Virus record (IMG/VR): IMGVR_UViG_3300044699_000014
Span: 1 to 51,190 of that record
Source: a virus
Reading direction: 5' to 3' (one strand)
DNA: 51,190 nucleotides
The first letter of the stretch is position 1. Each line of letters starts with the position of its first letter. Made by a program: the position numbers and the translations under genes. The notes below the pieces were generated by a model, which saw only the letters and a list, made by a program, of their open reading frames with translations, was not told where the DNA came from and did not search any database. This document shows positions 13,122-30,282 of this stretch, one piece after another.

Positions 13122-16100
13122 GTGGACATAACAACACTCGGCATCGGCATCGACACGCGGCAGGTTAACACTGCCAAGGACACGATGGATGCGTTCGCTC
13201 GCTCGGCTGAGAAGGCCGAGAAAGCCGCTGCCGGTGTTGGCGAAGGCGCGAAGAAAGGTGCGAAAGGTGCCCAGGAGGCAGGCGACTCGATGGCACTTTC
13301 TTTTATGAAAGGTGTTATCGGCGCGAACGCTATTGAAGATGCAGTAAAGATTGCAATTGATGCAGTTAAGCGACTTTATGAGTTGATGTCAGAAGCCGGT
13401 GACTATGCAGACCTTGCCGACATGACAGGTGCGTCAGCAGAGAATATCGCGAAGCTAAAGACCGCAGCCGATGTAGCCGGTGTGTCGATGCAAGGCATGG
13501 CTGGCTACATGAATCAGATGACGCGTGTGCTCAAGTCAACTGATGAAGAAGGTGACAAGGCAGCAAAAGCGTTGACGCGCATTGGACTTAGTTTCAAAGA
13601 CCTTCAAAGCATGGACCCTGCGGAACGCATAGCAGCGGTTGCGCAGGCAATGGGCAAGTATGCAGACGGTGCAGAGAAGACAGAGATTGCGCAAGCCTTG
13701 TTTGGTCGCGGTGCCGGTAGCGTGCTAAAGGTAATGAAAGAGCTTGCGGAAGCGTCTGCATTTACTACGCGACTTACGAACGAGTCAATCGCTGCTGTAG
13801 ATGGATTGAATGATGCGAATGCTCGATTCACTTCGCAGTCGCAGCAATACATTCAGGCATTACTCGTTGGTGCGGTGCCTGCGACAGAAGCATTCAAGAC
13901 CGCGATCAAAGCGACGACGATGGAAATGCTTGGCATGGGCGACGCGGCAACTTCGCTCGCTGCAAATGAAGGCATGAATACCTTCGCCACCAATGCGGGA
14001 AAATATCTTGCACTCCTGATTGCCCCAATTGAGGTAATCAACAAAGCGCTGAAAATTTTGAGCGCTGGTTTAGTTGCGGTTGTGCAAGCGGGTAAGGGTT
14101 TAGCGACATTGGACTTCGAGGCTATTGGACGTGCAGCGGATAACTTGAAAGAGCGTGTTGCCGCTATATGGAATCAAGAGTTGACGTGGACGAAATTCAA
14201 AAAGAATTTGAATGAGATAGGTAAGGCATCAAGGGATGCAGCGGGCAGCGGCGGCGGGCGGTGAGAACGCGTCCGGAAAAGAAAGAATAGAAACAGGACC
14301 GACTGACAAACAAATAAAAGACGCAAGAGAGTTCGACAAACTCTTGGCAGCGAACGCTGCGAAAGCCTCTGGTTACAATGCGAATTTCATCGAACAGATG
14401 AATCTCATTAACAGCGAGGCTAAAGAACGCAACTTCTCAGAAGAACAGTATAGACAAGCTGTTGACGCTTTGATTGCGCAGCAACCTTTCTACACCGACG
14501 GTGTAAAGAAAGGCACGAAGGCTGTAGAAGATGCGAAGAAGAAAACGGAAGACTTCTACAAGCTAGTGACTGGCGGCGAATTGAAGCAAGCCGGATACAA
14601 CGAGAACTTCATTGAACAGATGAAGTTGATAAACGCTGAAAGCGTGAAGGCAGGTTTCACAGAAAAGCAGCGTCAAGCGGCTATCAATAACTTGATTCAA
14701 CAGCAGCCGTTCTACACACAAGGGATAAAGGATCAAGCAGCGGCAGCGAAGGCATATCAGGATGCCGAAGAGAAGGCATTTGAAGCAGCGGACAAAGGCG
14801 ACAAAGCTGCTGTAAAGGCAGCGGAAGATGCTGCGACAAAGGCTGAAGAAGAACTCGCAAACTTCGGCAAGTTAAAGAGCGCAATTGCGGAAACAACATT
14901 ATTGCGACTGCAAGATAAACTAGCTGCTGTCGGCGGAAAGGATGACGTTTTAGAGGCACAAATTGCGGCGCAGAAGCGTTTGATCGAAGCATTGAAAGGC
15001 ATCGAAGTTAAAGAGGCTGCGAAGAAGGGTGCTGAAGAAGCGGCGAAGGAATTCGAGAAGGCGTGGGATCAGATCGGGCAATCACTCACCGATCAATTGA
15101 TGAAGGGCTCGCTCAAGGCAGCGGACCTTATTAAGAATCTATTTAAGACGATGATTCTTCAGCCGACGATCATGGGTGCGGCGAGAGGTTTCGGGGCGAG
15201 CTTCATGGGCGGTGCAGCCGGTGGTGCCGGTGCTGGTGGCGGCGGTATGGGCGGAATAGGCGGCATGGCGGGCTCCTATGCCGGTACAGCGCTCTTTGGC
15301 GGCGTCGGCGCGGCTGCGTCAGGGGCTTACACCGCTGCGGCGGCGGGCGGCGCAGGGACGATAGGCTCGATGGGCGCGGGTGCTATGGCGGGCCTGGGTG
15401 CTATCCCGGTGGCGGGATGGGTTGTCCTGGCTGCGGTTGCGGCCTATGCACTCTACAAAAAGTTCGGTAAGGGTGGCGGGCCAAAGGTCGAAGGCTCTGC
15501 CGGTTATGGTGCTGGCGACTTGATCGGCAAATACGGCAATGAGATGGATTCGAATGCCTTGAGTGCCGTCAAGGATTTGAACAGTAACTATCGGCGCATG
15601 ACGCAAGCGCTCGGTTCCACCGCAGCGAATGCACAATTCGGCGTTGGTTATTCAATGGACCCGCGAGGTGATGCGCCGTCGATGGTTCAAGTTCGCAGTC
15701 AATACGGCGAGGTTGTGAATAGAGACGCTGGCCGCACTGCGGAAGATTTGGCGAAGGCATTAGCCGAAGCACAGGCAACGGTGATGGTAGAAGCACTGCG
15801 CAATTCTGGGTTAGATGCGCAGATGCTTGCCTACTTCGACAAGATCACCGAAGGCATGACCGATGAAGCGAAGCTCGCTGCATTCGAGCAAGTTGCTGCT
15901 GTCGGACAGTATTGGAAGCAGTTGCAGATGTTCGGCGGTGTGCTTAAAGGACTCGGTAGTATCTCTCTTGATGCTGCTGTTAGTCTCGGTGAATTGTCCG
16001 GCGGTGTTGAAGTTCTAATGTCGAACCTTGCTACCTATCAAGAGCACTTCTTGAGTCCGGCAGAGCAAGCAAGCGCTAAGTATCAGCAGATTGCTGCGAC

Positions 16101-17157
16101 GCTTAATGAGGCAGGTAGTGGGTGGTACGGGTTCTCTGAGCAACTATTGCGCACATACGATAAAGACTTCTTCCGTAAAGTCATCGAAGGGCTTAATCTC
16201 GAAGACGAAGGTGACAGGATGCGTTATGCATCCATGATGAAAGTTGCCGGTGCCTTTGCTCAACTCAAGGAAGCAGAAGAGGCGGCGGCTAGTTCTACGG
16301 AAGACCTTGCTAAGCGCTATCAGGAGGCGTCGGATAGGTATAACGATGCTCTTGATACCTTACGCGATGCGTATGATCGGCAGAAAGATGTCTTGACGAC
16401 GACGCGTGATGCGATGCGTGACGCGACGCAATCGTTCCTAGACTTCAATGATTCGCTGAGGGTCGATCAGACTTTGAGCAATCTCAATCCGCAAGAACGG
16501 ATGGCAGAACTTCAAAGACAGTACGGAGTGGCGCAAGATAAGGCGGTTACAGGTGGTTATCAAGCCGAAGATGTGCAGCGCATGCAAGACGCTGCACGAG
16601 CCTTGCTGCAAGGCGGCAGGGAGTTCTACGGCTCGGGCGCAGGTTACGATGACTTGTTCAAGAAGATCACGCAAGAAATGGAGCTTGCTGCGGGCTCGAC
16701 GAAGTATGCGCAGGATATTGCTCAATCGCAATTGAATGCGCTTGAGAGGCAAGTCGGTTATCTTGTGAGCATTGATAACACGCTTATCAGTGTCGATCAA
16801 GCGTTGCGTGAGTTTACGGCTGCACGCAATGACTTGTATATGCTCGGGTATCCGCATGCCGAAGGTCTGTCGCGTGTCCCGTACAACAACTATCCTGCGC
16901 TGCTTCACGAAGATGAAATGGTCTTGCCTCAAAATGAATCGGCCTTCATTCGCGGTCTGCCGGACTTCTCAGGGGAGTTGCGAGCATTGCGTCAAGAGGT
17001 CGCCGCGCTGCGCAAAGAGAATCGGCAGGACGCAGGCAACACTATCGGTGCCACGTACACTGCGGCGCAGCAATCAGCACAAGTGCAAAGCGAAGCGGTC
17101 ATTCGGGCCGCTCGTCAGCGACTCTATCAATCTCGTTCAAGGCCGGTTCTGGCCTAA
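13122..17157 (+). CDS. Tail tape measure protein
   Basis: The start is GTG at 13122, 3 bp after the GT stop. The first frame (380 aa) ends at 14264 in a G-rich run (GSGGGR). A second frame of about 970 aa opens at 14236 with no ribosome site, so one indel near 14255 probably splits a single protein of about 1,340 aa. The N-terminal ~150 residues have helical LKTAADVAGVSMQGMAGYMN segments; then come a tandem ~48-residue repeat; long coiled coils (14.7-15.1 kb); a Gly/Ala-rich hydrophobic stretch (15.17-15.45 kb) with likely membrane-active helices; and a C-terminal NNYPALLHEDEMVLPQNESA motif typical of tape measures. It sets tail length and takes part in DNA delivery. Confidence 0.9.
14371..14733 (+). 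repeat. Tandem repeat inside the tape measure protein
   Basis: Two copies of a ~48-residue unit occur at about 14371-14512 and 14593-14733. They read GYNANFIEQMNLIN...QQPFYTDGVKKG and GYNENFIEQMKLIN...QQPFYTQGIKDQ. They share the FIEQM-x-LIN core and the QQPFYT end, separated by a Lys-rich linker. Duplications of this kind change tail length in steps. Confidence 0.8.
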
Positions 17158-17622: not shown

Positions 17623-17901
17623 GTGGCTTACACCAAAACCTGCGACCCGAATGTAGTCATCGAGTCGCAGACGCCTACTAGCGTCATCTACCTTGTCCCT
17701 CACACGGGGGAGAGGTGGAGGATCGACGGTGTGTGCAATCATTGCGGGGCATGCTATAAGAATGCCGTAGGGCCTGCTCCTGAATTAGATTGTCCGGTTC
17801 GGCCTGAAATTAATCGTGTCTTCCCTACGTGTACGCTGAGTGGGGAGTATCTGAATCAAGTCTGTATTACGATTGCTCCTAATGGGGAGTATCTTCTGTA
17901 A
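17623..17901 (+). CDS. Small cysteine-rich tail protein with CxxCxxC motif
   Basis: The 92 residues start at GTG 17623 (GTGCG spacing, no strong ribosome site). C38, C41 and C44 (VCNHCGACY) plus C57 followed by Pro resemble a ferredoxin-like [4Fe-4S] motif; zinc is the alternative. Further cysteines are at 7 and in the last third. Its stop overlaps the next ATG by one base, so the two are coupled. Metal-binding small proteins do occur among phage tail-tip components, but the metal here cannot be told from sequence. Confidence 0.6.
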   Translation: MAYTKTCDPNVVIESQTPTSVIYLVPHTGERWRIDGVCNHCGACYKNAVGPAPELDCPVRPEINRVFPTCTLSGEYLNQVCITIAPNGEYLL

Positions 17902-20900
17902 TGGCAACCAAACTTTATTTCTCTTCTGTTGAATTAACGTCGCCGACGATTCCGGATGGCACGTATCTCAACACGACGAGTGTTCTGCTTAGTCCTACCC
18001 CTTTAGTTGCTTCACTATCGGGTCATAACGTCTATCGCAAGACGTTGTCGACCACAATGGTCAATGCAGTTAAGCTCCTGACGCTTAACGGCACGCTTAT
18101 ATTTAATGGGATGTTCTTTGGGCGTTATCAATCCGCCCCACTTGCTGCTCAAACGATACCCGCGCAAACGTGGACGATTGTTCCGGATCAAGGTGAAGGT
18201 TCTACAGGTGCCAATACTTTTCACTGGCCTTATCTTGCCATCTATCGACCATCAACACAGCAAGTAGTTGGCACATTCCTTGATGGTAGTGGTTCTTTTG
18301 GCGGCGTTGAGTGGTCAGGCGGTATAACTACAGGCAACCCGCAGAATTATGCTTGTTCCGCTATCACTTGCCAAGATGGTGACGTTCTTATCTACGAAGC
18401 CTGGGCTGCATTACAGACTTATGGTACGGCTGTACCAATGTCGACGGGTGTGCATTCATGGGGAATGGACGAACAATTCACCCGGATTGACTCTCCCTAC
18501 ACACTCACGTTCTACACCGGACCGACAGGGACAAACTATCCAAGCGTCGCGGACAAGATAGACCTCTCGCCGATGACGCCGTCTGCGACGACGGACATCG
18601 CGGCACTCAGCAGCGTTGCAACACCGTTCATTCTCACGCCGATGACGGCGTTCGATGCAACGTCCACGGTGACGCGTGCGCCGGTTCTGACATCGAGCGT
18701 CGCGAGTCCGACAACCTATGGCCCGACAGCGGCAACAGCGGCAACAGCGCTCGTTGCGAAGACGTATACGAGCACCGCACTGCCAACAACCTACGCGCAT
18801 GCGGCACCGGCTGCAATATCGAGTGCAACACGATTCAGTGCGGCAATGCCGTTCATCTTAACGCCGATGACGGTATTCGATGCAACGTCGACAGCGACAC
18901 GCGTTGTGTCCAGCGTTGCAAGCCCAACAAGCTATGCACTAGCGCCAGTGGCGGCAACGTCGTCGGTGAGTGTTGCGCCTGTCGGTGTCACAAGCAATGC
19001 GCTGCCGACAACCTATGCGCATGCTGCGGTGTTGGCAACGAGTTCGGTGCAGGGTTACAGCATCGCATTGCCAATTGCTCTAGGGCCGGTGTCTACGGTT
19101 GCAGCGACATCGACGGCACAGAAGTACAGCATCGCATCACCGGCAACCTATGCGGTGAACGTAGCGGCGACACCGGCAACTGATAGCGTGCAGGGCTACA
19201 GCATCGCGTTGCCGATCACCACTTATGCAGTCACGGCGGCACCGGCAACAGCGACGGCAGCACGAGTCTTCATCAGTAGCGGCGACGCGGCTGTCTTCGC
19301 ACCGCTAGCGGCGATGCCTGCGAATGTAAATGTCACGAGTGCTGCGTCACCCGCGACCTTTGCACTTGCTGCATTCCCGATGGATGTCGTCTTCAGCGGC
19401 ATCACGAATCTCTATTGCGTCGCGGACCCGTCGAACATCGTCATCTCCGGACTGAAGGCCGGATCACTTCCGAAAGCTGGCAACAACAACGTCGCGACAG
19501 GCAGCGGTGTTGACGGTGTGCTGAGTGCATTCTGGGGCGGCACCGGCAACATAACGAACCGCACCACGACAACGGTATCAAACACTAACCAGCAATCGAA
19601 CTATTTCGGGCGCTTCATTTCTCGCCCACTCGCTGCGCAAACAATTGCCGCGCAGAATTGGAACTACGCACCATTAGTCGGTGAAGGTAGCACCAATGCG
19701 AAGACGTTCTTTTGGCCTGTCATGTATGTGTGGAGGCCATCGAACAGCACCGTCGTTGGCTATGTCTTTGATGCAGCGGCGAATGCTGGCACCGAATGGC
19801 CCGCAACACCGGCAACAGCGACTCGCACGATTGCGGGTGCGAGAGTAGACGGTGTTCAAGATGGCGACGTGCTTGTTGTCGAAGCCTGGGCGGTATCAGC
19901 ACCGACGATAGCGGGTGTGTATACGCAGACGTGGCGTATTACGGACAACACGTCGAAGATCGTCACGCAATACAAGCTGCTGTACCTGCCATCGTCGATT
20001 CTGTACTTCAACGCCAATGTCCCGGCCTATTCTCCTACAGCCGGTTCGAAGGCGAGCAGCCTGCCAAAGGCACAGAATACGAATTGGAATGCGGGCCTGC
20101 CAGAGAGTTCGCTTAGCGAGACATTGGTTCAAGCGCCAGTGGGGCGCACGGTTAACTCAATCGCGAACACGACACAGCAGTCGCTCTATTTTGGTCGACA
20201 TTCAACACCGCGACTTGCTGCGCAAACCATTCCGGCGCAGACATGGGGCTGGGAAGTATCGGCAGGCATGTCGCAACCTTATGCGCATACCTATCACTGG
20301 CCGGTATTGTATGTTTGGCGTCCGTCGAACAATAGCGTCGTCGGCTACATATTCAATGCGTCAGCTAATTACGGCATTGAATGGCGCATCAATGTCGATC
20401 CGCAACTGAATCAGCAATTTGCCGGTGCAGCCGTCGATGTTCAAGATGGCGACATACTCGTTGCGGAAATTTGGGGCGTCAACACGCAGACGACAGGGTC
20501 ATCTGCCGCTGAACAAGTTTGGACGACTGCTGTCAATGCGAGCATCGTCTCGCCGTACAAGCTGGTCTACTACACAGGGCTGAAGCAGTCGATTCAATCG
20601 TCAGCAGACCCGACGACATACGATCTCGTCGAAGCCGATGCGACGAGCACCTATGCACGCGGCATCATCGACACGCCGTCGACGGCACTGCCTGCCGTCT
20701 ATGCCCATGCAGCACCGGCTGCGGTGTCACTTGCTGATCGTGTCAGCATTGCGCTGCCGTTAACGTACACACATGCGCCGACAGCCGCGACTTCTTCTGT
20801 CACGCGGATATACACAAGCAATGCCGTTGCGACATCGTATGCGCTCGCGCCGGTTGCAGCCACGAGCGCTTATGTGCCGACAGCCGGTAACGTCGCGCCT

Positions 20901-23900
20901 GTGGTCTACACGCTCGTGCCTGTGGCAGCGGTGTCGAGCGTGCAGGGCAACAGCGCGGCGTTGCCTTTGGTCTACAGTTTCGCCGCGACAGCTACGGGCA
21001 CCGGGCGCGGTTACGCGAGCATTGCGAATCCGGGCCTGTACGCTCTTGCAGGGGCTCCGGGCTCTAGTGGCATTGGCGGGGGTGCGTTCGCGTCGCCTGG
21101 ATCGTTCTCGCAAGCCGTTTTCCCCGGCCTCGGACGTGGCGAGCTACAGCAGCAACGCCGGACCGATCGGTTTCAGCTACGCGGGCGCGGCGGCAACGGG
21201 CATCGCTGGTCGCGTCTACTCATCCACGGCAACACCGTCGAGCTACACGGTCAGCCCAGCGTTTGCCGGTGAACTCGCAGCGTTGTTCTCTGTTGCATCA
21301 CCGCACGCTTACACGCAAGTCGCACAACCTGCGACGGGAAGCACATTCGTCGCAGCTATTGCGACAACGTCGGTTGCGCTGCCAGCGACATACGCACAAG
21401 CTCCACAACCTGCGACAGGTGTCGCTCGGGCGCGTCTTACACAAGCTGCTGCGCTGTCGACATCGTTCTTCTTCAATCCGATTGATGTCGGCGTAGCATT
21501 TGCGCGGACATCGAGCGCAACACCGGGTGCGTATAACTTAGCGGGTACGGCAGCATCGGTGCTGTTCGCGAGAGCGTCGATTGCGCTGCAAGCGAACTAC
21601 GATTTTGCGCCACAACCTGCGAACGGTGTCGCTAGGACGCACCTACACAAGTACGGCACTGCCGTCAGTATTCTTCTTTAATCCGATTGCTGTTTTCGAA
21701 GCGTTTGCGCGTGTTACCACTGCATCTCCCGTTGCATATAGCACGGTGGGTGCAGCGGCAACAGACACAGCCGTTGCAGCGTTGATCTCTGATGCGTCGC
21801 CTGCGACGTATAGTCTCGCGGCACCAGGATGTCGGCGGTGAGCTTCAAGCTCGTAACTTCGAGCTTTGCACAAGCAGCGAGCTACACGTTCATACCGCAT
21901 CCGGCGTATGGCTATGCGACGCGTGCGTCTGTTGCATTGCCAATCGCATACAGCGGTGTTGTCGGGACATCGACTAGCAGTAGCTTTGCTCGTGCGTCGG
22001 CGGCAATTCCGGCGACGTATCTCGTCTCGGGCTCTTACGTCTATGTCCTTGGTGGCGCTATCACTGTCAGTGTCGCTAATCCTGCAACGTACTTGCTCAG
22101 TGGCGGTTGGCATGGTGATGCATACGCTCGTTTCGTGGCGGCATCGAGCACTGCATATAGTTCGACGGCAATGGCGGCATCGAGCGTGCCGACAAAGAAC
22201 TCTGTCGCATTGCCTGCAAGCTACAGCAGCCCAATACCCGACGCATGGTCCGGGCGTGTCACATTCTCTACTGCGCTGCCTGCGACATACAGCTTCTCGT
22301 CGCCTTCAACATTCTCGTATGTCCCGAGTAAGCTGACATCGACTGCATTGCCTGCGACATATAGCTTCTCGTCGCCTGCGACGAATCATCTACGCGGCTA
22401 TGTTTCGCGAGCTATCCCGGCACCGTATGTGCTCACGTATTGGAACGTGGGCGACTTCGCGACTAGTCAGGTCAAGCCTCCGCTTGTCTATCCGCCATAC
22501 GTGCCGCAGGCGGTGGTGACAGATGCACAGTTCGTGACGTGGCTGTCTGATGAGCGGGCTGTGCGTATCACGTTGATCGAGACATCGTGCATTGATCCTG
22601 TGACAGGCAACACCGAGTTTGTTTACTTCGCTTCGTCTGGGTTCGTCACGAAGATCGAAGACGGTCCACCTAACTACTATGCGCCGTTGCTGCGCGGCGG
22701 ATTAGAGTTTGCACAGACGATTGATCTCGACTTGTCGGGCAATCAATCGTATGGTGACATCGAGCTTGACAACACAAGCGGTGAACTCGATTGGATGTTT
22801 GATCGTGTGTGGCTCTTTAAGGGGCTCAAGGCTTTCGTCGGTGATGCGACATGGCCGCGCCGGGACTTCAGGCAGATATTCGATGGCAACATCGAAGACG
22901 TTGACAGCAGCCAGCGCGACACCGTGAACGTGCGTTTGCGCGACAAGCTCTATCGGCTTGAGTCGCCGTTGCACGATACCATGATTAGCGGCACCGATAC
23001 TACCAACGCGGACAGACTTATTCCGGTGACGCTGGGTGAGTGCCATAACATCACGCCGCTGTTGAAAGACGCGACGCAGTTGATCTATACCTATCACGTG
23101 CGAGTCTCAGAGAGCGTGATTGAAGTTCGCGATAACGGTATTCCTGTGAATATGTCATTTTTATCAGGTGCACCGTCATCGTTCAAATTAGCTAAGCAGC
23201 CCTACGGTCGGATCACATGCAGCGTGCAAGGTGACTTGACTCCTGCTGGTCCTGACTCTGGATACGTCAACACCGTGGCGACAATCATAAAGCGCCTAGT
23301 CATGGAATGGGGCACCGTCGTCGCGAATCGGTTCAAGCGTTCAGATATTGACTTGGACAATTTCTCAGCGTTCGACATAAGCAATAAAGCGGCGGTTGGT
23401 CTATACCAGACAGAACGTCTAACTGTGCGAGAGGCGTGCCAAGAGATTGCCGCGTCTGTTGGTGCACGCATGACGATGACCGCGCTTGGTAAAGCGCAAC
23501 TCGTGAAGTTGCGGTTGCCGCCACCGAATCCAGGTCTAGTGAACTTGCAAGTCAATGGCGATTTCTCGTCGGGCATGGCAGGTTGGATATACGGCGGTTC
23601 TGTTGGCGGCGTTGTGCCGAGTGGCTATGTTGGCATCAACCTTGATCCGTCATGGTACATACCCGGTGGCTTCACGTTCTACGCGAATCAGCAAGGCACG
23701 CAAAATAACGCAGCCGGATATTTTGTTTACGCAGGCAGTCGAATTGCGGCAGAGCCGAATAAGCTATACACCGTGAGCGCGTACACAGGCGCTCACCGAT
23801 GCAAGGTCGATATTGTTTTCTATGAGTACGATGCGAACGACACCATACTCGCGATCTCTAGTCCGGCCAACGCTAACAACGCAGAGTCTGCCGGTGGAAC

Positions 23901-24546
23901 GGCACTCTCTGGCTATAAGCTAGTCACTAGCTCAAAGGTGACGACTCCCGGTGTTGTCTCTATTCGTGCTGCATTGCGTAAGTGGGACACTATTCCTGGC
24001 AACTCTGATTCATGGCTATTTGCGACGAACGTCACTGCGACGAGTGAGGGAAGTGACATCAAGGCACCCATCATCGTCACTGAGTCTGACATGGTGATGG
24101 GTTCTTTGCACATTGCGGATCGTCTGCCAGTGGTGCCGAGTGCGCGCCTTGGCTACTGCAAGAATTGGACAGTGCAAGAGGACACCGCAGCCGGTGTCCC
24201 TGAAGATCACAAGGCAATGTATTCGCGTGAGTGGCTTACCATCCTGTCCACTAATCAAGCATCACGCGATAGGTATGGTTTGTCGAGTGAACCAGAGCAA
24301 GAGAATTGTTTGCTGCTGGATAAGATGAACGCTACCAATGAATGTGCGCGACGTGTTGACTTGCGTTCCACACAGCGTCACGTCTATGAGTTCGTCGGTT
24401 TTGCGAACTTGATGTTCACACCAGTGGGTGCAGCGATGACGATCATTCACCGTCGATTTAACTTGTCTGCGGGCAAGACGGGACAAGTTGTGTCGGTCGC
24501 TGTAAACTGGCTAACGTCCCAGGTCACTATCAAGGTGCTGATCTAA
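17901..24546 (+). CDS. Giant repeat-rich tail protein (tail tip/fibre), frameshifted
   Basis: One gene of about 2,215 codons is interrupted near 21130, 21640 and 21830, where adjacent frames carry on the same repeat pattern. Order: domain A (FGRYQSAPLAAQTIPAQTW to DGDVLIYEAWA); a Ser/Thr/Ala-rich array of short units x-A-[LS]-P-x-x-[YF]; domains B and C, copies of A; a second longer array up to about 22440; then a ~700-residue C-terminal region without repeats (VTDAQFVTWLSDERAVRITL, LRGGLEFAQTIDLDLSGNQS, RDFRQIFDGNIEDVDSSQRD, a carbohydrate-binding-like beta stretch around 23.5-24.0 kb and a final RRFNLSAGKTGQVVSVAVNW). The C-terminal part looks like a tail-tip hub; the repeats probably form an extended fibre. 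Receptor binding is inferred. Confidence 0.75.
18080..20600 (+). repeat. Three copies of a ~160-residue beta-rich domain
   Basis: Copies lie at about 18080-18520, 19440-19985 and 20030-20580. Each contains FGR-x(4-5)-PLAAQTI-x-AQ-x-W, then E/M-x(7-10)-F/Y-x-WP-x(2)-Y-RPS, VVG-x(2)-F and DGD-[VI]-L-x(2)-E-x-W. The first is separated from the others by an A-[LS]-P array, so duplication was followed by insertion or loss. Confidence 0.8.
18600..22440 (+). repeat. Array of ~35 short A-[LS]-P-x-x-[YF] units
   Basis: Units of about 18-26 residues, such as TALPTTYAHAAPAA, VASPTSYALAPVAATSSV and IALPLTYTHAPTAATSSV, recur at about 18600-19390, 20590-21130 and 21130-22440. They are rich in Ala, Ser, Thr and Pro. 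Some copies are nearly identical at DNA level (the two TALPATYSFSSP units near 22270-22380), so unequal recombination is likely. The recurring Y/F and P suggest a regular beta or triple-helical shaft. Confidence 0.8.
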
Positions 24547-25121: not shown

Positions 25122-25979
25122 ATGAGCAATATTCGAATCATCTGGGACAATGCAATCGACCGTGCAACGCTTGTTGCGTCGAGCGAGTCCGGCACACTCG
25201 TTGCCGCGAATCTGTTGTCGAATCTCAAGGCCAAAGTTTGGCGCGCAACAAACGTCAATGCCGGTGTGGTCTGCACATGGCCGACGAAGGCTGAGCCGAT
25301 AAGCTGTATCGTGGCAGCATTCAACAACCTCACACCACAAGCAACGATGCGTGCGTTCGGCTATACGTTCGCAACAGACACCGTGCCAGTGTTCGACACG
25401 GGTGCGGTCGCGTGTGCAGCGTCTCCGGGCCTGGGACAGTTCCTATGGGGCTCACCGCTAGGCGAGAACTTCTATCAGCGCGGCGGCGCTTCTCTGTTCG
25501 CCTATGGCTATGGTGGCTATGGCGTGCTATGGGTTCCCGGTAGCTACGCAGTGCGCAAGCTCGAAATTCAAATCTATGATTTGGACAATCCTGACACGTA
25601 CATCGAAGTCGGTCGATTGATTGCCGGTGCAGTCTGGTCGCCGAAATATAACTTCAGCTTCGGACACAATGTCACGTTCGTGGATTCAAGCAAGAACAAG
25701 CGCACTGAATCAGGCGACTTGCGCGGCGAGCGCGGTCCGAAGTGGCGGCGCATCGAATTCGAACTTGGCAACATGAACTCGGAAGATCGTGCCGCGTTGT
25801 TGCGCATGATCCGCCTGAACGGTGTGACAGAACCAATGTTCATGAGTCTGTTCCCTGAAGACGACGACACATTGCTTGAACAAAGCTATCAACTCTGGGG
25901 CAAGTTTGCAGATAGCCCGCAACTGTCTCAGCCCAATTATCATATATACGCTGCACGCGTTGCAGTGGAGGAAATGTGA
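25122..25979 (+). CDS. Conserved tail-tip protein
   Basis: This is a 285-residue intact protein. Features: a start with MSNIRIIWDNAIDRATLVAS and NLLSNLKAKVWRATN; a middle FGHNVTFVDSSKNKRTESGD; and the end part NMNSEDRAALLRMIRLNGVT then MFMSLFPEDDD. This pattern is shared by a group of siphophage tail proteins located after the large tip protein. Its N-terminal part resembles galactose-binding/jelly-roll domains (inference). Its TGA overlaps the next ATG. Confidence 0.7.
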   Translation: MSNIRIIWDNAIDRATLVASSESGTLVAANLLSNLKAKVWRATNVNAGVVCTWPTKAEPISCIVAAFNNLTPQATMRAFGYTFATDTVPVFDTGAVACAASPGLGQFLWGSPLGENFYQRGGASLFAYGYGGYGVLWVPGSYAVRKLEIQIYDLDNPDTYIEVGRLIAGAVWSPKYNFSFGHNVTFVDSSKNKRTESGDLRGERGPKWRRIEFELGNMNSEDRAALLRMIRLNGVTEPMFMSLFPEDDDTLLEQSYQLWGKFADSPQLSQPNYHIYAARVAVEEM

Positions 25980-26383
25980 TGGCTACTGCTCGCCCCTTTG
26001 ATTACGGCAAGAAAGACTACATTGATCGTTTGAACGATCTCTATAACTCGGGCATTCCGAAGGTGCGCACGAGCGCAACGGACCCTGATGCGCCGGGCAC
26101 CGACGTGACAGCAAGCAGACAAATGCGCCTTGGCGACAACGGGTGCTGCGCCGACTGCAAGGGGGCAGGCATCGTTATCACGTTCAATGCTGACTGTCTG
26201 CTCGATGGGTTTTCTGTTTGCATCAATGCCGTGTCCGGTGGCTCAGTGACGATCAATCCTGTCGTTCAAGCCGGTGTCACCTTTCAAGATGGCACAACGT
26301 CAAAGACAATTGCAGTGGGCAATGCTGCCATCATCTCAAGCGACGGTGTTGGCTTTCGCATCTTTAGAATGACTGCAACGTAA
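25979..26383 (+). CDS. Small tail-region protein with Cys cluster (134 aa)
   Basis: The ATG at 25979 overlaps the TGA of the preceding gene (TGATG). Residues near 54-62 read CCADCKGAG, a single CxxC knuckle in a Gly-rich turn. The rest is a repeat-like beta structure (VTINPVVQAGVTFQDGTTSK). I do not recognise it. It is tightly coupled to the tail-tip genes on both sides. Confidence 0.6.
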   Translation: MATARPFDYGKKDYIDRLNDLYNSGIPKVRTSATDPDAPGTDVTASRQMRLGDNGCCADCKGAGIVITFNADCLLDGFSVCINAVSGGSVTINPVVQAGVTFQDGTTSKTIAVGNAAIISSDGVGFRIFRMTAT

Positions 26384-26392
26384 GGGCACATC

Positions 26393-28384
26393 ATGCCGCG
26401 CATCTTTTCGAAATCTCGATTGAAGTTGCCGCCGTCAGGTATACCGGACAACGCGCCACCGATCAACACCGTGCCAGCGACACAAACAACGCCGGTCGGT
26501 ACGGCGAAGCAGTTCTCCGACACGAACGGTAATCAAGTCAAGGTCGGTGACGTTGATTCCCCAATCGTCACAGCCGTAGTGAGCACAACTAACGGCACGA
26601 TTGAAGTCATTCCGAATCCAGCGACATTGATATGGAATAACATTACCGCAAGCGTCTCATGCACCGGCTCAGTGGTCAACGTGAATCGCGCATTGAACGG
26701 TATGTACTTGCGCCCGGTTGCCGGATACAACGGCACGGCAACGATCACACTGCGCACGAGCGACGGGTATAACATCGACATCGACAGCTTTGATGTCACG
26801 GTAGGCGTCGGTACACCGCCTGCGCCAGCACCACAACCGCCCGTCAACACCGTGCCGGGTGCGAAGACAACGGCGTATCAAACAGCGCTCAATCTCGCGA
26901 GCGCGAACATTAGCGTCTACGATCCGGACTCTACGTCGCTCACGACAACCTTGACGATGCAAGGCGGCACGGTCAATGTGTCTGCCGCAGGCGGTGCGAC
27001 GGTGACAGGCAACAGCACAAACCTTGTCACCATCTCAGGCACGCAGGCGCAGATCAACGCAGCACTTGCGACGGTGGTCTATACACCTAGCACAGGTTTT
27101 GTCGGTGCCGGACAAATTCAGATGTCGACTTCAGACGGTTCGCTAGTTGACATCGACACCATTGACATCACTGTTCAAGCCGCTGCCGGTGCGCCGGTTA
27201 TCACTGCGCCAGTGGGTCGATCAGGCGGCAACATGACGTTCTCTGTTGCGAATGGCTATCCGATCTCTGTATCTGATCCTAATTCGTCGACACTCACGGT
27301 CACGCTCACGGCAGGTAATGGCAAGCTGAAGGCAGTTGACATAGGCACTGTTCCTCTTGCCGATGGTTTTCCTTCGAAGATTATTTACGGCTTTTGGCTG
27401 TATTGGTCTTCGCTACGCATAACGGCCATAAGCCAGAACTTCAACATCATCGGCCTGTTTCACTTTCGCAATTCAGGCAACGGCATGGATGGCGGCTCGG
27501 CATCCTGGCCCACGCCGGGTAATCCTACTGCGGCTGAAGTAAAGACGGTCGTGGATCGTGGACAAAAAATCTTCGTCGTCGTGGGCGGCGTTGGTTATTC
27601 GTTCTTCTATTCAACGCGTGCGCAGTCCGATGCTCTTTTGGCTGCTCTAATCCCATTCATCAACGGTCTGGGCGGCGCAGCGTACATTCACGGTGTTGAT
27701 TTCAACAATTGGTATACCGACATCACAGGTCTAGACTATGCGACAGAATTGGTCTACTTAGCGCAGCAACTCAAGGCGACGTTCGGTGTCAAATTTGCTA
27801 TTGTTTTTCCGGTAAAGAACAATGCCGCGTACAACCGCAACTTGATGAAAGCGATGTCAGACGCGAACTACTCTGGCACGAGCTTGCTAACGTGGGTCAA
27901 TCCGCAATACACAGACAACGTCGCCTATAAGACGGCGGGCGTCGTGAAAGGCGAGATCGACACATGGGTCAATACGCCGTTAGCAGAGACGAAGGTGATG
28001 ATGGGGCTTTCGTCGAACTACAACATGACGACGAACTCATTGACGCTGGCAGAGTGCACGCGTGAATGGGATGCTGCCTATGCTGCGCATCCGAATTTGC
28101 GTGGCGTAGGCTGCTACAGCATCGACACTGATGCGGCAATCAGCTACGCATTTGCAAACGCATTCAAGGCTCGGTTCGACACCGCCATGCAGACAGGTGC
28201 GTCGATCACGAATAACAACACGAGGCAAATTACCATCTATGGCACCATCGCACAATGCAATGCAGCACTCGATGGATTGACCTATACGATAGACGGTTCT
28301 GGCTCTGGCGACTCGATACAGATCACCGCGAATGACGGGGCACTGACTGACTCAGAGGTAATTACCCTCTTGTATCCGGCCTAG
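26393..28384 (+). CDS. Tail protein with degenerate GH18 barrel inside a beta-sandwich
   Basis: 663 aa. Residues ~30-290 hold two cadherin/Ig-like repeats (YDPDSTSLTTTLTMQGGTVN and ISGTQAQINAALATVVYTP). A third repeat starts SVSDPNSSTLTVTLTAGNGK, is interrupted after ~325, and resumes at ~605 (NNNTRQITIYGTIAQCNAAL) to the end. The ~270-residue insert follows the GH18 order: KIIYGFW (beta 1), KIFVVVGGVG (SxGG-type), YIHGVDFNNWY at the DxxDxDxE position, VMMGLSS, and VGCYSIDTDAA (beta 8). At the catalytic motif the residues are H433, D436, N438 and W440, so the acid Glu is replaced by Trp. It may bind rather than cut N-acetylglucosamine polymers. It is the last tail gene before lysis. Confidence 0.75.
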   Translation: MPRIFSKSRLKLPPSGIPDNAPPINTVPATQTTPVGTAKQFSDTNGNQVKVGDVDSPIVTAVVSTTNGTIEVIPNPATLIWNNITASVSCTGSVVNVNRALNGMYLRPVAGYNGTATITLRTSDGYNIDIDSFDVTVGVGTPPAPAPQPPVNTVPGAKTTAYQTALNLASANISVYDPDSTSLTTTLTMQGGTVNVSAAGGATVTGNSTNLVTISGTQAQINAALATVVYTPSTGFVGAGQIQMSTSDGSLVDIDTIDITVQAAAGAPVITAPVGRSGGNMTFSVANGYPISVSDPNSSTLTVTLTAGNGKLKAVDIGTVPLADGFPSKIIYGFWLYWSSLRITAISQNFNIIGLFHFRNSGNGMDGGSASWPTPGNPTAAEVKTVVDRGQKIFVVVGGVGYSFFYSTRAQSDALLAALIPFINGLGGAAYIHGVDFNNWYTDITGLDYATELVYLAQQLKATFGVKFAIVFPVKNNAAYNRNLMKAMSDANYSGTSLLTWVNPQYTDNVAYKTAGVVKGEIDTWVNTPLAETKVMMGLSSNYNMTTNSLTLAECTREWDAAYAAHPNLRGVGCYSIDTDAAISYAFANAFKARFDTAMQTGASITNNNTRQITIYGTIAQCNAALDGLTYTIDGSGSGDSIQITANDGALTDSEVITLLYPA

Positions 28385-28385
28385 T

Positions 28386-28700
28386 ATGTGGGATGACGTT
28401 CATCTATGGATACAGCGCTTAGCCGGTGTTGCTGGTGCGCTCACGTCGATTCGCTTCGTCAGTGGCTCATTGTTCGAGCGGGTGCTCATGGTGATTGGTG
28501 GTGCGTTCTTCTCGTTATACGCAACAGAATGGGTTGCGCAGTGGCTCTCGTTGCCACACGGGCTCACAGGCTTCTTGCTCGGCTTGTTTGGCATGTCGGT
28601 GCTTAGTCGCGTGTGGGAGTGGGTGCAGTCGACGAATGCTGTATCCGGCTTTCTTGATGCATGGTTAAATAGAGGCAAGCCGAAGGACAACGACAAATGA
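28386..28700 (+). CDS. Small membrane protein, putative holin
   Basis: 104 residues with two to three hydrophobic segments (about residues 10-25, 31-52 and 58-75) and a charged C-terminus RGKPKDNDK. It starts 1 bp after the preceding stop and overlaps the next gene by 4 bp (ATGA). Position directly before a second membrane protein and the endolysin suggests a holin or antiholin; there is no sequence signature to tell which. Confidence 0.65.
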   Translation: MWDDVHLWIQRLAGVAGALTSIRFVSGSLFERVLMVIGGAFFSLYATEWVAQWLSLPHGLTGFLLGLFGMSVLSRVWEWVQSTNAVSGFLDAWLNRGKPKDNDK

Positions 28701-29002
28701 GAATGCTCGATCTTTCCTTTGTGTCGTCGGCGTGCTGGTTCTTCATAGGCGTCACGGCTGTCGTTGCGAGCTTCAATGGCATGGTGCGTAAGACCGTGCT
28801 TGAGTGCGTTGCATTGGGCGGTGTCAGCCTGGGTGCGTTCTCGCGGTCTTACTATGTTTTCATGCGACAAGAAACGGACCCTGATGCCGTGTGGATTTCA
28901 ATTGCGCTTGCGATCTATTGCCTTGCCATGTGGTACAAACTCGTGTGGGTTATTCCGCATCGGCCTGACTATCGGCCACCGAAGAAATCGCCCTATTACT
29001 GA
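28697..29002 (+). CDS. Small membrane protein, putative holin/antiholin
   Basis: 101 residues with three predicted membrane segments (about 9-25, 36-52 and 66-84) and a basic Pro-rich tail (RPDYRPPKKSPYY). It overlaps both neighbours (ATGA at 28697, TGATG at 29000-29004). With 28386-28700 it forms a two-gene holin-type unit before the endolysin. Confidence 0.65.
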   Translation: MRMLDLSFVSSACWFFIGVTAVVASFNGMVRKTVLECVALGGVSLGAFSRSYYVFMRQETDPDAVWISIALAIYCLAMWYKLVWVIPHRPDYRPPKKSPYY

Positions 29003-30282
29003 TGGCAAACATCACGCTCAGTGACTACATTGTCAAGCGCAATGTGCGGGCGTTCCTGTGGGCGATTCGATATGGCGAAGGCACACAAGGCGAGAATGGA
29101 TACCGCACGCTGTTTGGCGGAATGCTGTTTAAGGGTGCCGACGGTGTATATGGCACCTTCGACGACTTCGCGGATCACCCGCGCATCAAGACGACAGTCA
29201 AGCTCAAAAACGGCAAGGTCTACACGTCGACTGCGGCGGGCGCTTATCAAATTATCGTGCGCACCTGGGACGGTGTTTGCAACGAGTACGGCTTCATTAA
29301 CTTTGAGCCACCGACACAAGACCTTGCGGCAATCGCATTGATAGCGGGCCGCAAAGCGCTTGAAGATGTCATTGAAGGCCGCATCGACACCGCAGTTGCG
29401 AAGTGCAATAAAGAATGGGCTAGTCTGCCTGGGAGTCCCTACGGTCAGCCCGTTGTCACGATGGGAGAGTTCAAGCGAGAATACGAAGAGGCGGGCGGGC
29501 TGTATCTGAACGAAGAAGCGCAACCCTTGCCGATACCGCTGCCAGTGGATGCAATTGCTCTTGAACCCAAATTGCCACCAGCTAACGGCGGCAGCGATGT
29601 TGTCGAGATTGCACGCGGCAAAGAAGCGGACATTGCGGCGAGCTACATACAGGAGAAACAAATGCCCATACCCGCAGTTGTCGCGGCGTTGTTGCCGACG
29701 CTCATTCAACTCGTGCCGCAGTTGGCAAAGATTTTCGGCACCGGCTCTGAGGTATCGAATCGCAATATCGCAGCGGCAGAAGCGGTGTTCACTGTTGCGA
29801 AGGATGCCATCGGCGCGAAGAATGAACAAGAGGTTGTCGAAGCCGTAAAGGCCGATCCTGTTCAAGCAACCATCGTCAAGAATGCCATAGAGAAGAACTA
29901 CCTGAATATTCAAGAGGCAGGCGGCGGCGGGATCGAGGGGGCACGGGACTACAGCCTTGCTGTCGCGCAGATGCGAACATCGGAGGGACAGCCGCTATCG
30001 CTATGGATTCAGCCAGCGTTCGTAATCTCTGTCGTGATGCTTGGCCTTGTTGTTATGATGGTGTTCGTAGTATTGTTTCCCTGGGAAATCTTCAGACCGA
30101 ATGGCGGACAGATTTATTCTGACGATGTCAGGCTAATCGTAGTGACAGCAATCATCGGCTCGCTTTCTACTATCGGGGCCTTCTGGCTCGGATCGTCTTT
30201 TGCAAGCCGACAAAAGGACACTACGATAAACACCGCGCTTAGCAACCGCACACGAGCAACTGATTTAAGGAGCACTCAATGA
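29002..30282 (+). CDS. Lambda R-like endolysin fused to a membrane domain
   Basis: 426 aa. Residues 1-170 match the GH104 family (lambda R transglycosylase): FLWAIRYGEGTQG with catalytic-type E26, then LFGGMLF, DHPR, TSTAAGAYQ, FEPPTQDLAAIALI and EWASLPGSPYGQP. Residues ~171-220 are a linker. From M221 (base 29662) follows a region that in other phages I recall as a separate protein: AALLPTLIQLVPQLAKIFGT, an Ala/Glu helix, two membrane segments (~330-355 and ~378-395) and a polar tail. An AGGAGA ribosome site stands at 29651-29656, so the second part may also be made alone. Whether the fusion is real or due to one wrong base at a stop codon cannot be decided here. It cleaves peptidoglycan at lysis. 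Confidence 0.8.
   Translation: MANITLSDYIVKRNVRAFLWAIRYGEGTQGENGYRTLFGGMLFKGADGVYGTFDDFADHPRIKTTVKLKNGKVYTSTAAGAYQIIVRTWDGVCNEYGFINFEPPTQDLAAIALIAGRKALEDVIEGRIDTAVAKCNKEWASLPGSPYGQPVVTMGEFKREYEEAGGLYLNEEAQPLPIPLPVDAIALEPKLPPANGGSDVVEIARGKEADIAASYIQEKQMPIPAVVAALLPTLIQLVPQLAKIFGTGSEVSNRNIAAAEAVFTVAKDAIGAKNEQEVVEAVKADPVQATIVKNAIEKNYLNIQEAGGGGIEGARDYSLAVAQMRTSEGQPLSLWIQPAFVISVVMLGLVVMMVFVVLFPWEIFRPNGGQIYSDDVRLIVVTAIIGSLSTIGAFWLGSSFASRQKDTTINTALSNRTRATDLRSTQ
29662..30282 (+). CDS. In-frame internal start: small lysis-region membrane protein
   Basis: ATG 29662 lies 5 nt after AGGAGA (29651-29656), in frame with the endolysin. The product would be 206 aa, starting MPIPAVVAALLPTLIQLVPQ, with two C-terminal membrane helices. 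It resembles stand-alone phage proteins of the lysis region, so independent translation is likely even if the long fusion is also made. Confidence 0.55.
   Translation: MPIPAVVAALLPTLIQLVPQLAKIFGTGSEVSNRNIAAAEAVFTVAKDAIGAKNEQEVVEAVKADPVQATIVKNAIEKNYLNIQEAGGGGIEGARDYSLAVAQMRTSEGQPLSLWIQPAFVISVVMLGLVVMMVFVVLFPWEIFRPNGGQIYSDDVRLIVVTAIIGSLSTIGAFWLGSSFASRQKDTTINTALSNRTRATDLRSTQ

Follow-up and report, generated by a model that had tools for sequence, protein, structure and literature searches.

The window, by which we mean the whole stretch of DNA analysed here, is the 51,190-base IMG/VR virus record IMGVR_UViG_3300044699_000014, which belongs to an uncultivated phage. It encodes a major head protein, a tape-measure-like protein, tail genes, a holin, an endolysin, a DNA polymerase and a terminase, and thus represents a tailed phage that uses a tail-length ruler. 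The gene of interest, henceforth termed the fibre gene, and its neighbours are as follows.

14236..17157, + strand: tail tape-measure-like protein (phrog_25966, E 5e-12)
17901..21272, + strand: large repetitive protein in the tail-gene region, putatively of the tail tip (no family match in Pfam or PHROGs)
21829..24546, + strand: large protein (905 aa) in the tail-gene region (phrog_8917, E 1e-54)
25122..25979, + strand: phrog_8610 protein (weak match to phrog_6278, E 0.0095)
25976..26383, + strand: 135-aa protein directly upstream of the fibre gene, conserved in all relatives with coverage of the locus
26393..28384, + strand: fibre gene, 663 aa (open reading frame; AlphaFold2 model; homologues L002-L027)
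28386..28700, + strand: holin (phrog_2359, E 1e-11)
29002..30282, + strand: endolysin (phrog_90, E 2e-39)

Every relative covering the locus shared the same gene order, namely the phrog_8610 gene, the 135-aa gene and the fibre gene, followed by the holin and endolysin genes. No relatives of the two proteins upstream of the fibre were found by tblastn in 50,697 phage records. The protein encoded at 17901-21272 showed ~30-52% identity among the relatives other than L001 and contains multiple overlapping internal matches. ALPATYSFSSP-like repeats were seen in the N-terminal part of the 905-aa protein (positions 21829-22400) and also matched the gene 17901 region in relatives.

Layout of the fibre protein

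The fibre protein consists of a short N-terminal tail, two cadherin/Ig-like domains (Ig1 and Ig2) and a third such domain (Ig3) that is interrupted by a GH18-like barrel.

26393..26452, + strand: N-terminal ~20 residues (pLDDT <50 at residues 1-14; R3 and F5 invariant in alignment A1)
26453..26812, + strand: cadherin/Ig-like domain 1, residues 21-140 (AlphaFold2 model; repeat alignment)
26834..27178, + strand: cadherin/Ig-like domain 2, residues 148-262 (AlphaFold2 model; repeat alignment)
27182..27355, + strand: N-terminal half of domain 3, residues 264-321 (z 5.4 to domain 2; strands 269-313)
27356..28195, + strand: inserted GH18-like (beta/alpha)8 barrel, residues 322-601 (profiles, AlphaFold2, Foldseek)
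28196..28372, + strand: C-terminal half of domain 3, residues 602-660 (z 12.1 to domain 2; strands 603-660)

The N-terminal ~20 residues are a possible virion-attachment peptide. According to the preliminary description, the third beta-sandwich is split by a GH18-like barrel of ~270 residues and resumes afterwards; the split was borne out, while the insert turned out to be ~280 residues long (322-601). Domains 1 and 2 are mutual repeats (z 19.0). Residues 264-321 joined to 602-663 aligned with domain 2 at z 16.6 against shuffles, a score above those of the N- and C-terminal halves taken singly, and the insert itself gave no alignment with domain 2 (z 0.5). The AlphaFold2 model, built from an 18-sequence alignment (mean pLDDT 83.8), comprises three beta-sandwiches and an eight-stranded beta/alpha barrel at residues 330-599, the third sandwich being made of the strands at 269-313 plus those at 603-660. 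Strands 192-195 and 203-205 of domain 2 are linked by a short turn in this model, and their equivalents in domain 3 (310-313 and 603-606) have the barrel in between; thus, the predicted insertion site is a beta-hairpin loop. With a pTM of 0.48, the orientations of the domains, including that of the barrel against the stalk, are unreliable.

No profile of cadherin-like or tandem-95 domains matched above its curated cut-off, and the beta-sandwich fold rests on the AlphaFold2 prediction. NF012211 (tandem-95 repeat) matched residues 212-272 weakly (E 2.5e-4), and Cadherin_5 matched the relative L006 (E 7e-4), both under the cut-off. A Pfam KH_1 match (E 1e-4, residues 600-627) fell on the C-terminal half of Ig3 and was taken as spurious. 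We found no uninserted (empty) Ig homologue among the viral contigs, as every sufficiently complete relative of Ig1-Ig2 carries the barrel. Neither Pfam nor PHROGs gave a Dit or Tal match to the fibre, for which the top Foldseek matches were GH18 and Ig-like proteins.

The GH18-like barrel and its active site

Structure prediction, which the preliminary description had set as the check on the fold, returned a full TIM barrel with strand and helix alternating eight times across residues 330-599. In the Foldseek search of the window protein against PDB, GH18 chitinases ranked first (9fbo, 4mb3, 3n11 and 3ebv; E 1e-12 to 1e-11), and a profile of 11 barrels (A2) reached GH18 chitinases in PDB at E 6e-16. 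Considering these two results together, the homology to GH18 is not a matter of chance. A nine-barrel profile of the non-nested relatives also reached hevamine, concanavalin B, XIP and Endo H, and the AlphaFold2 model of the relative L041 (pLDDT 88.3, pTM 0.89) had a TM score of 0.83 to 3ebv. Single-sequence searches of the window protein (Pfam, PHROGs, NCBIfam and phmmer on PDB) did not detect GH18. PF00704 gave no match to the window barrel even at E<=5, matched two of the 11 relatives (best E 0.0009) and reached the full protein of L018 at 8.6e-7, just under the cut-off. By tblastn, no relatives of the fibre, or of the barrels of two of its relatives, were found in 50,697 phage records. Altogether, the predicted fold, the insertion and the loss of residues detailed below appear well supported in silico. 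The positions corresponding to the GH18 active site are the following.

27566..27589, + strand: beta-3 SxGG equivalent KIFVVVGG, residues 392-399 (model, alignment)
27689..27712, + strand: degenerate DxxDxDxE motif HGVDFNNW, residues 433-440 (Glu position is W440)
27905..27916, + strand: beta-6 QYTD, residues 505-508 (GH18 catalytic Tyr position is T507)
28103..28138, + strand: beta-8 GVGCYSIDTDAA, residues 571-582 (conserved beta-8 Trp position is Y575)

His, Asp, Asn and Trp occupy residues 433, 436, 438 and 440 precisely as the preliminary description had read them, and its beta-8 landmark YSIDTDAA lies at residues 575-582. At beta-3 (VVVGG), the GG is retained and the Ser of SxGG is absent. 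The key residues of hevamine are Asp125, Glu127 and Tyr183 (PMC3662789), and their counterparts in the multiple alignment are N438, W440 and T507. The window barrel has no Glu at either of the two candidate positions (W440 and Y441). Among the 10 distinct Ig-inserted barrels, the Glu column is filled by W (five), F (two) or Y (three) and the column after it by Y, N, T, V, I or D. As neither column holds a Glu, the loss of the catalytic acid, which the preliminary description had claimed for the window barrel, extends to every Ig-inserted homologue regardless of which column is the Glu equivalent. The beta-6 Tyr column contains T, L, I or M, with Tyr absent in all 10, and the beta-8 Trp is replaced in eight of the 10. 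The window barrel therefore lacks DxxDxDxE with its proton donor as well as two residues of the -1 subsite, the beta-6 Tyr and beta-8 Trp, and displays what distinguishes chitinase-like lectins, a GH18 barrel with replaced catalytic residues.

Relatives of the barrel and divergence of the fibre

L001 is a different genotype that is 97.2% identical to the window over 18 kb. The fibre genes of the two differ at 25 bases, eight of them within the barrel, all at third positions and synonymous (0 nonsynonymous). The dN/dS of the barrel was 0.08-0.24 in other pairs, in which dS was often near saturation, and 0.12 in the unsaturated pair L003/L007. From the synonymous differences and the low dN/dS, we conclude that the fibre gene is neither decaying nor misread, and these sequence comparisons support purifying selection on it. 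Nine further Ig-inserted homologues were identified, all without the Glu and with 39-72% identity to the window fibre; L005 and L017 were left out for frame breaks, probably by assembly damage. One may suspect that the nesting or the motif loss is an artefact of sequencing, assembly or alignment, or the mark of a decaying gene, particularly as GH18 is invisible to single-sequence searches of the window protein. This suspicion, which we regard as having a negligible chance of being correct, is refuted by the identical protein of the independent genotype L001, by the layout common to ten homologues and by the support for their clade (see below). A sequence error concealing an intact DxxDxDxE, one of the two outcomes that the preliminary description had named as fatal to its claim, is likewise ruled out by L001 and the nine homologues.

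The ten Ig-inserted barrels formed a monophyletic clade with a support of 100/99; thus, the nesting most likely arose once. Non-nested relatives of the barrel exist in other viral contigs and in bacteria, and most of them read DGxD(F/W)N(N/T)(F/Y)E, in which the Glu is shifted one residue later, with the beta-6 Tyr and beta-8 Trp kept. Two contigs classed as viral, L119 (185 kb) and L120 (129 kb), encode a free barrel with the intact motif DGVDWDLES and, as judged by eye, a LysM-like tail at the C terminus (L119:3965-4960 and L120:1-966), which is possibly an endolysin or a secreted chitinase. The search for homologues retaining the Glu, also called for by the preliminary description, thus recovered none among the Ig-inserted barrels, a shifted Glu in most non-nested relatives and the intact motif in L119. 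In the tree, where secreted chitinases of the usual kind (DGIDxDxE) from the same bacterial family served as the outgroup, L119 fell among the barrels with the shifted Glu (NNxE; 100/98 and 100/99); the viral contig L051 was left out of the second tree. Given that most related barrels have N-N/T-F/Y-E and one relative from a large virus has the intact motif, the catalytic loss was probably stepwise. The simplest reading of the sequences would be a one-residue change at the end of beta-4 in the NNxE group, followed by full loss in the Ig-inserted clade. The nearest cellular relatives are Ramlibacter barrels (32-35% identity to the window barrel), which look like lipoproteins from the lipobox-like N termini recognised by eye. 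Ramlibacter sp. Leaf400 has three copies in a single genome (L053, L054 and L060; DGCDFNNFE) that constitute a divergent cellular GH18 branch, and a lipoprotein-like N terminus is present in L053 and L054.

The fibre is far more divergent than most of the genes around it. In the relatives except L001, the identity to the window was 78-84% for the phrog_8610 protein, 76-93% for the endolysin and 80-93% for polA, as against 39-72% for the fibre; in L029, for instance, the endolysin and polA were 89% and 93% identical and the fibre 40%. Gene 24546 and gene 17901, the latter putatively of the tail tip, are likewise divergent (about 30-57%), so that fast change is shared by several genes of the region, the fibre among them. 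Between L003 and L007, the third-position identity was 40-58% in Ig1-Ig2 and rose to 74-94% from about residue 276, placing the breakpoint of a recent exchange near residue 250-276. This jump indicates that Ig3 and the barrel were exchanged together as a unit. The divergence and the module exchange match, albeit indirectly, what may be expected of a host-recognition gene, and the position among tail genes together with the faster divergence is consistent with a tail fibre.

Related barrels recur across several unrelated virion proteins. In L018, a 762-aa protein whose N terminus is tail-fibre-like ends in two barrels in tandem, and L042:4960-6744 and L043:447-2231 encode a Phage/GTA baseplate hub protein (TIGR02218, E 1e-67) with a C-terminal barrel. 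The barrel was also found with a phrog_6278 protein and a beta-helix in L038, phrog_6278 being the family weakly matched by gene 25122 of the window. A 1,989-aa viral protein of L040 (63-6029) combines a beta-helix, a barrel and GH8 (Pfam E 4.5e-14; phrog_1696, tail), L036 combines CBM35 with the barrel and L034 a beta-helix with the barrel.

Proposed function of the fibre

We propose, with a probability of about 0.68, that the protein is a receptor-binding tail fibre bearing a lectin that derives from GH18 and is catalytically dead. The stalk would consist of two and a half cadherin/Ig-like domains. A barrel derived from a GH18 chitinase would have entered the third domain of an ancestral fibre once, at a hairpin loop, to be presented as the distal head, and would have lost the GH18 machinery, i.e., the Glu, its Asp partner, the beta-6 Tyr and the beta-8 Trp. 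The cleft or loop surface of the barrel would then bind a saccharide of the host surface, possibly one containing GlcNAc, without cutting it. We infer the location in the virion from the gene order, the rapid divergence and the occurrence of the module as a fusion partner of bona fide tail proteins elsewhere, and glycan binding is the most likely role of the barrel, whatever its ligand. The GH18 chi-lectin TCLL binds GlcNAc although its catalytic Glu is replaced (PMC3662789), and CBM inserts in Dit promote adsorption (PMC10688798). The replacement of the beta-8 Trp in eight of the 10 Ig-inserted barrels and the uncertain orientation of the barrel against the stalk count against this proposal.

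The barrel could instead be a structural spacer or a protein-binding module. XIP and XAIP are plant inhibitors that have the GH18 fold and bind enzymes, and the profile and Foldseek matches do include such non-catalytic GH18 folds (XIP, XAIP, concanavalin B and narbonin). Mapping conservation onto the Ig-inserted barrels gave no clear signal of a ligand site: the loops of the catalytic face had a mean entropy of 1.27 bits, against 1.19 for the helices and 1.03 for the far-face loops. Conservation of these loops does not exceed that of the remaining barrel and so gives no sign of a single ligand shared across the clade, which counts for a spacer and against the proposed lectin, but the same pattern would also fit a binding face diversifying with the host. 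The recurrence of the module beside CBM35, beta-helix and GH8 domains (L036, L034, L038 and L040) points to a carbohydrate-directed setting, and repeated recruitment would be needless for a mere spacer; we therefore consider this alternative unlikely. Rather improbable, too, is that the barrel is still an enzyme, namely a depolymerase cutting a host polysaccharide with rearranged catalytic residues. The depolymerase of Geobacillus phage TP-84 was annotated as GH18-like (PMC10131341), related phage and cellular barrels keep the shifted Glu, the Tyr and the Trp, or even the intact motif in L119, four Ig-inserted members have an Asp at the downstream Glu position, and the Ig-inserted clade keeps acids at 508 and 580. 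Nevertheless, in the window barrel the two candidate Glu positions read W440-Y441, the Asp is replaced by N438 and the Tyr by T507, and both Glu and Tyr are absent in 10/10 Ig-inserted members.

It is also conceivable, albeit with a very low likelihood, that the fibre or its barrel binds an environmental polysaccharide such as fungal or arthropod chitin and retains the phage near its hosts. GH18 ancestry suggests polymers of GlcNAc, and the Ig-like domains of phage T4 Hoc, which bind mucin glycans (reviewed in PMC9853417), offer a precedent. The fast divergence of the fibre and the module exchange, on the other hand, fit the evolution of host range better than an invariant substrate like chitin, and the beta-8 Trp is mostly gone.

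Among known systems, the chitinase-like lectins (TCLL, YKL-39, YKL-40/SPG-40, concanavalin B, narbonin and XIP) resemble the barrel in having the GH18 fold with catalytic residues replaced. Several of them bind GlcNAc or chitooligosaccharides, as we infer for the phage barrel, but they are eukaryotic and mostly secreted free, whereas the phage barrel is nested in an Ig-like domain and has an aromatic residue at the Glu position. The secreted GH18 chitinases of Chromobacterium (4tx8), Streptomyces (3ebv) and Bacillus cereus (3n11) share the fold, the beta-3 GG and the beta-6 and beta-8 landmarks with the window barrel, but their DxxDxDxE, Tyr and Trp are intact, all of which are replaced in the latter. 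The preliminary description regarded the nested design as undescribed. Dit and Tal proteins with CBMs inserted in their loops have already been described (PMC7291167, PMC10688798), so that nesting in tail proteins as such is not new; in a limited search of open-access papers, we came across neither a phage adhesion module made from a GH18 pseudoenzyme nor a TIM barrel placed inside a cadherin-like or Ig domain. In the evolved Dit and Tal of siphophages of Gram-positive bacteria, too, a saccharide-binding module occupies a loop of a beta-sandwich tail protein, and the adhesion region around it is one in which modules are swapped. The inserts of Dit and Tal are CBMs, frequently BppA-like, and sit in domains of galectin or gp27 type, whereas in the fibre the insert is an entire GH18-derived barrel of 280 residues, housed in the cadherin-like domain of another gene. 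The evolved Dit principle would thereby be extended to an insert that is larger and derived from an enzyme, and to a different scaffold.

More tentatively, and with somewhat less than an even chance in our estimation, a mobile GH18 pseudoenzyme may be a general adhesion head of environmental phages. It would have originated in a bacterial chitinase lineage seen today as the Ramlibacter-type lipoproteins and been passed among unrelated virion proteins (the hub, beta-helix proteins and tandem fibres), and in one lineage, nested in a cadherin-like domain, it would have lost the remaining active-site residues to become a diversifying host-recognition lectin. Receptor-binding modules of environmental phages mostly go unrecognised, and both Pfam and PHROGs miss the one in the window, which can now be named and searched for in phage genomes. 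The Ramlibacter-type lipoproteins and other N-N/T-F/Y-E barrels share the beta-7/alpha-7 and beta-8 motifs with the window barrel but are not nested and retain DGxD(F/W)N(N/T)(F/Y)E, the beta-6 Tyr and the beta-8 Trp. Across viral and bacterial proteins, there is thus a graded series from the intact motif through the shifted Glu to no catalytic residues, which makes the route from an enzyme to a probable lectin testable residue by residue.
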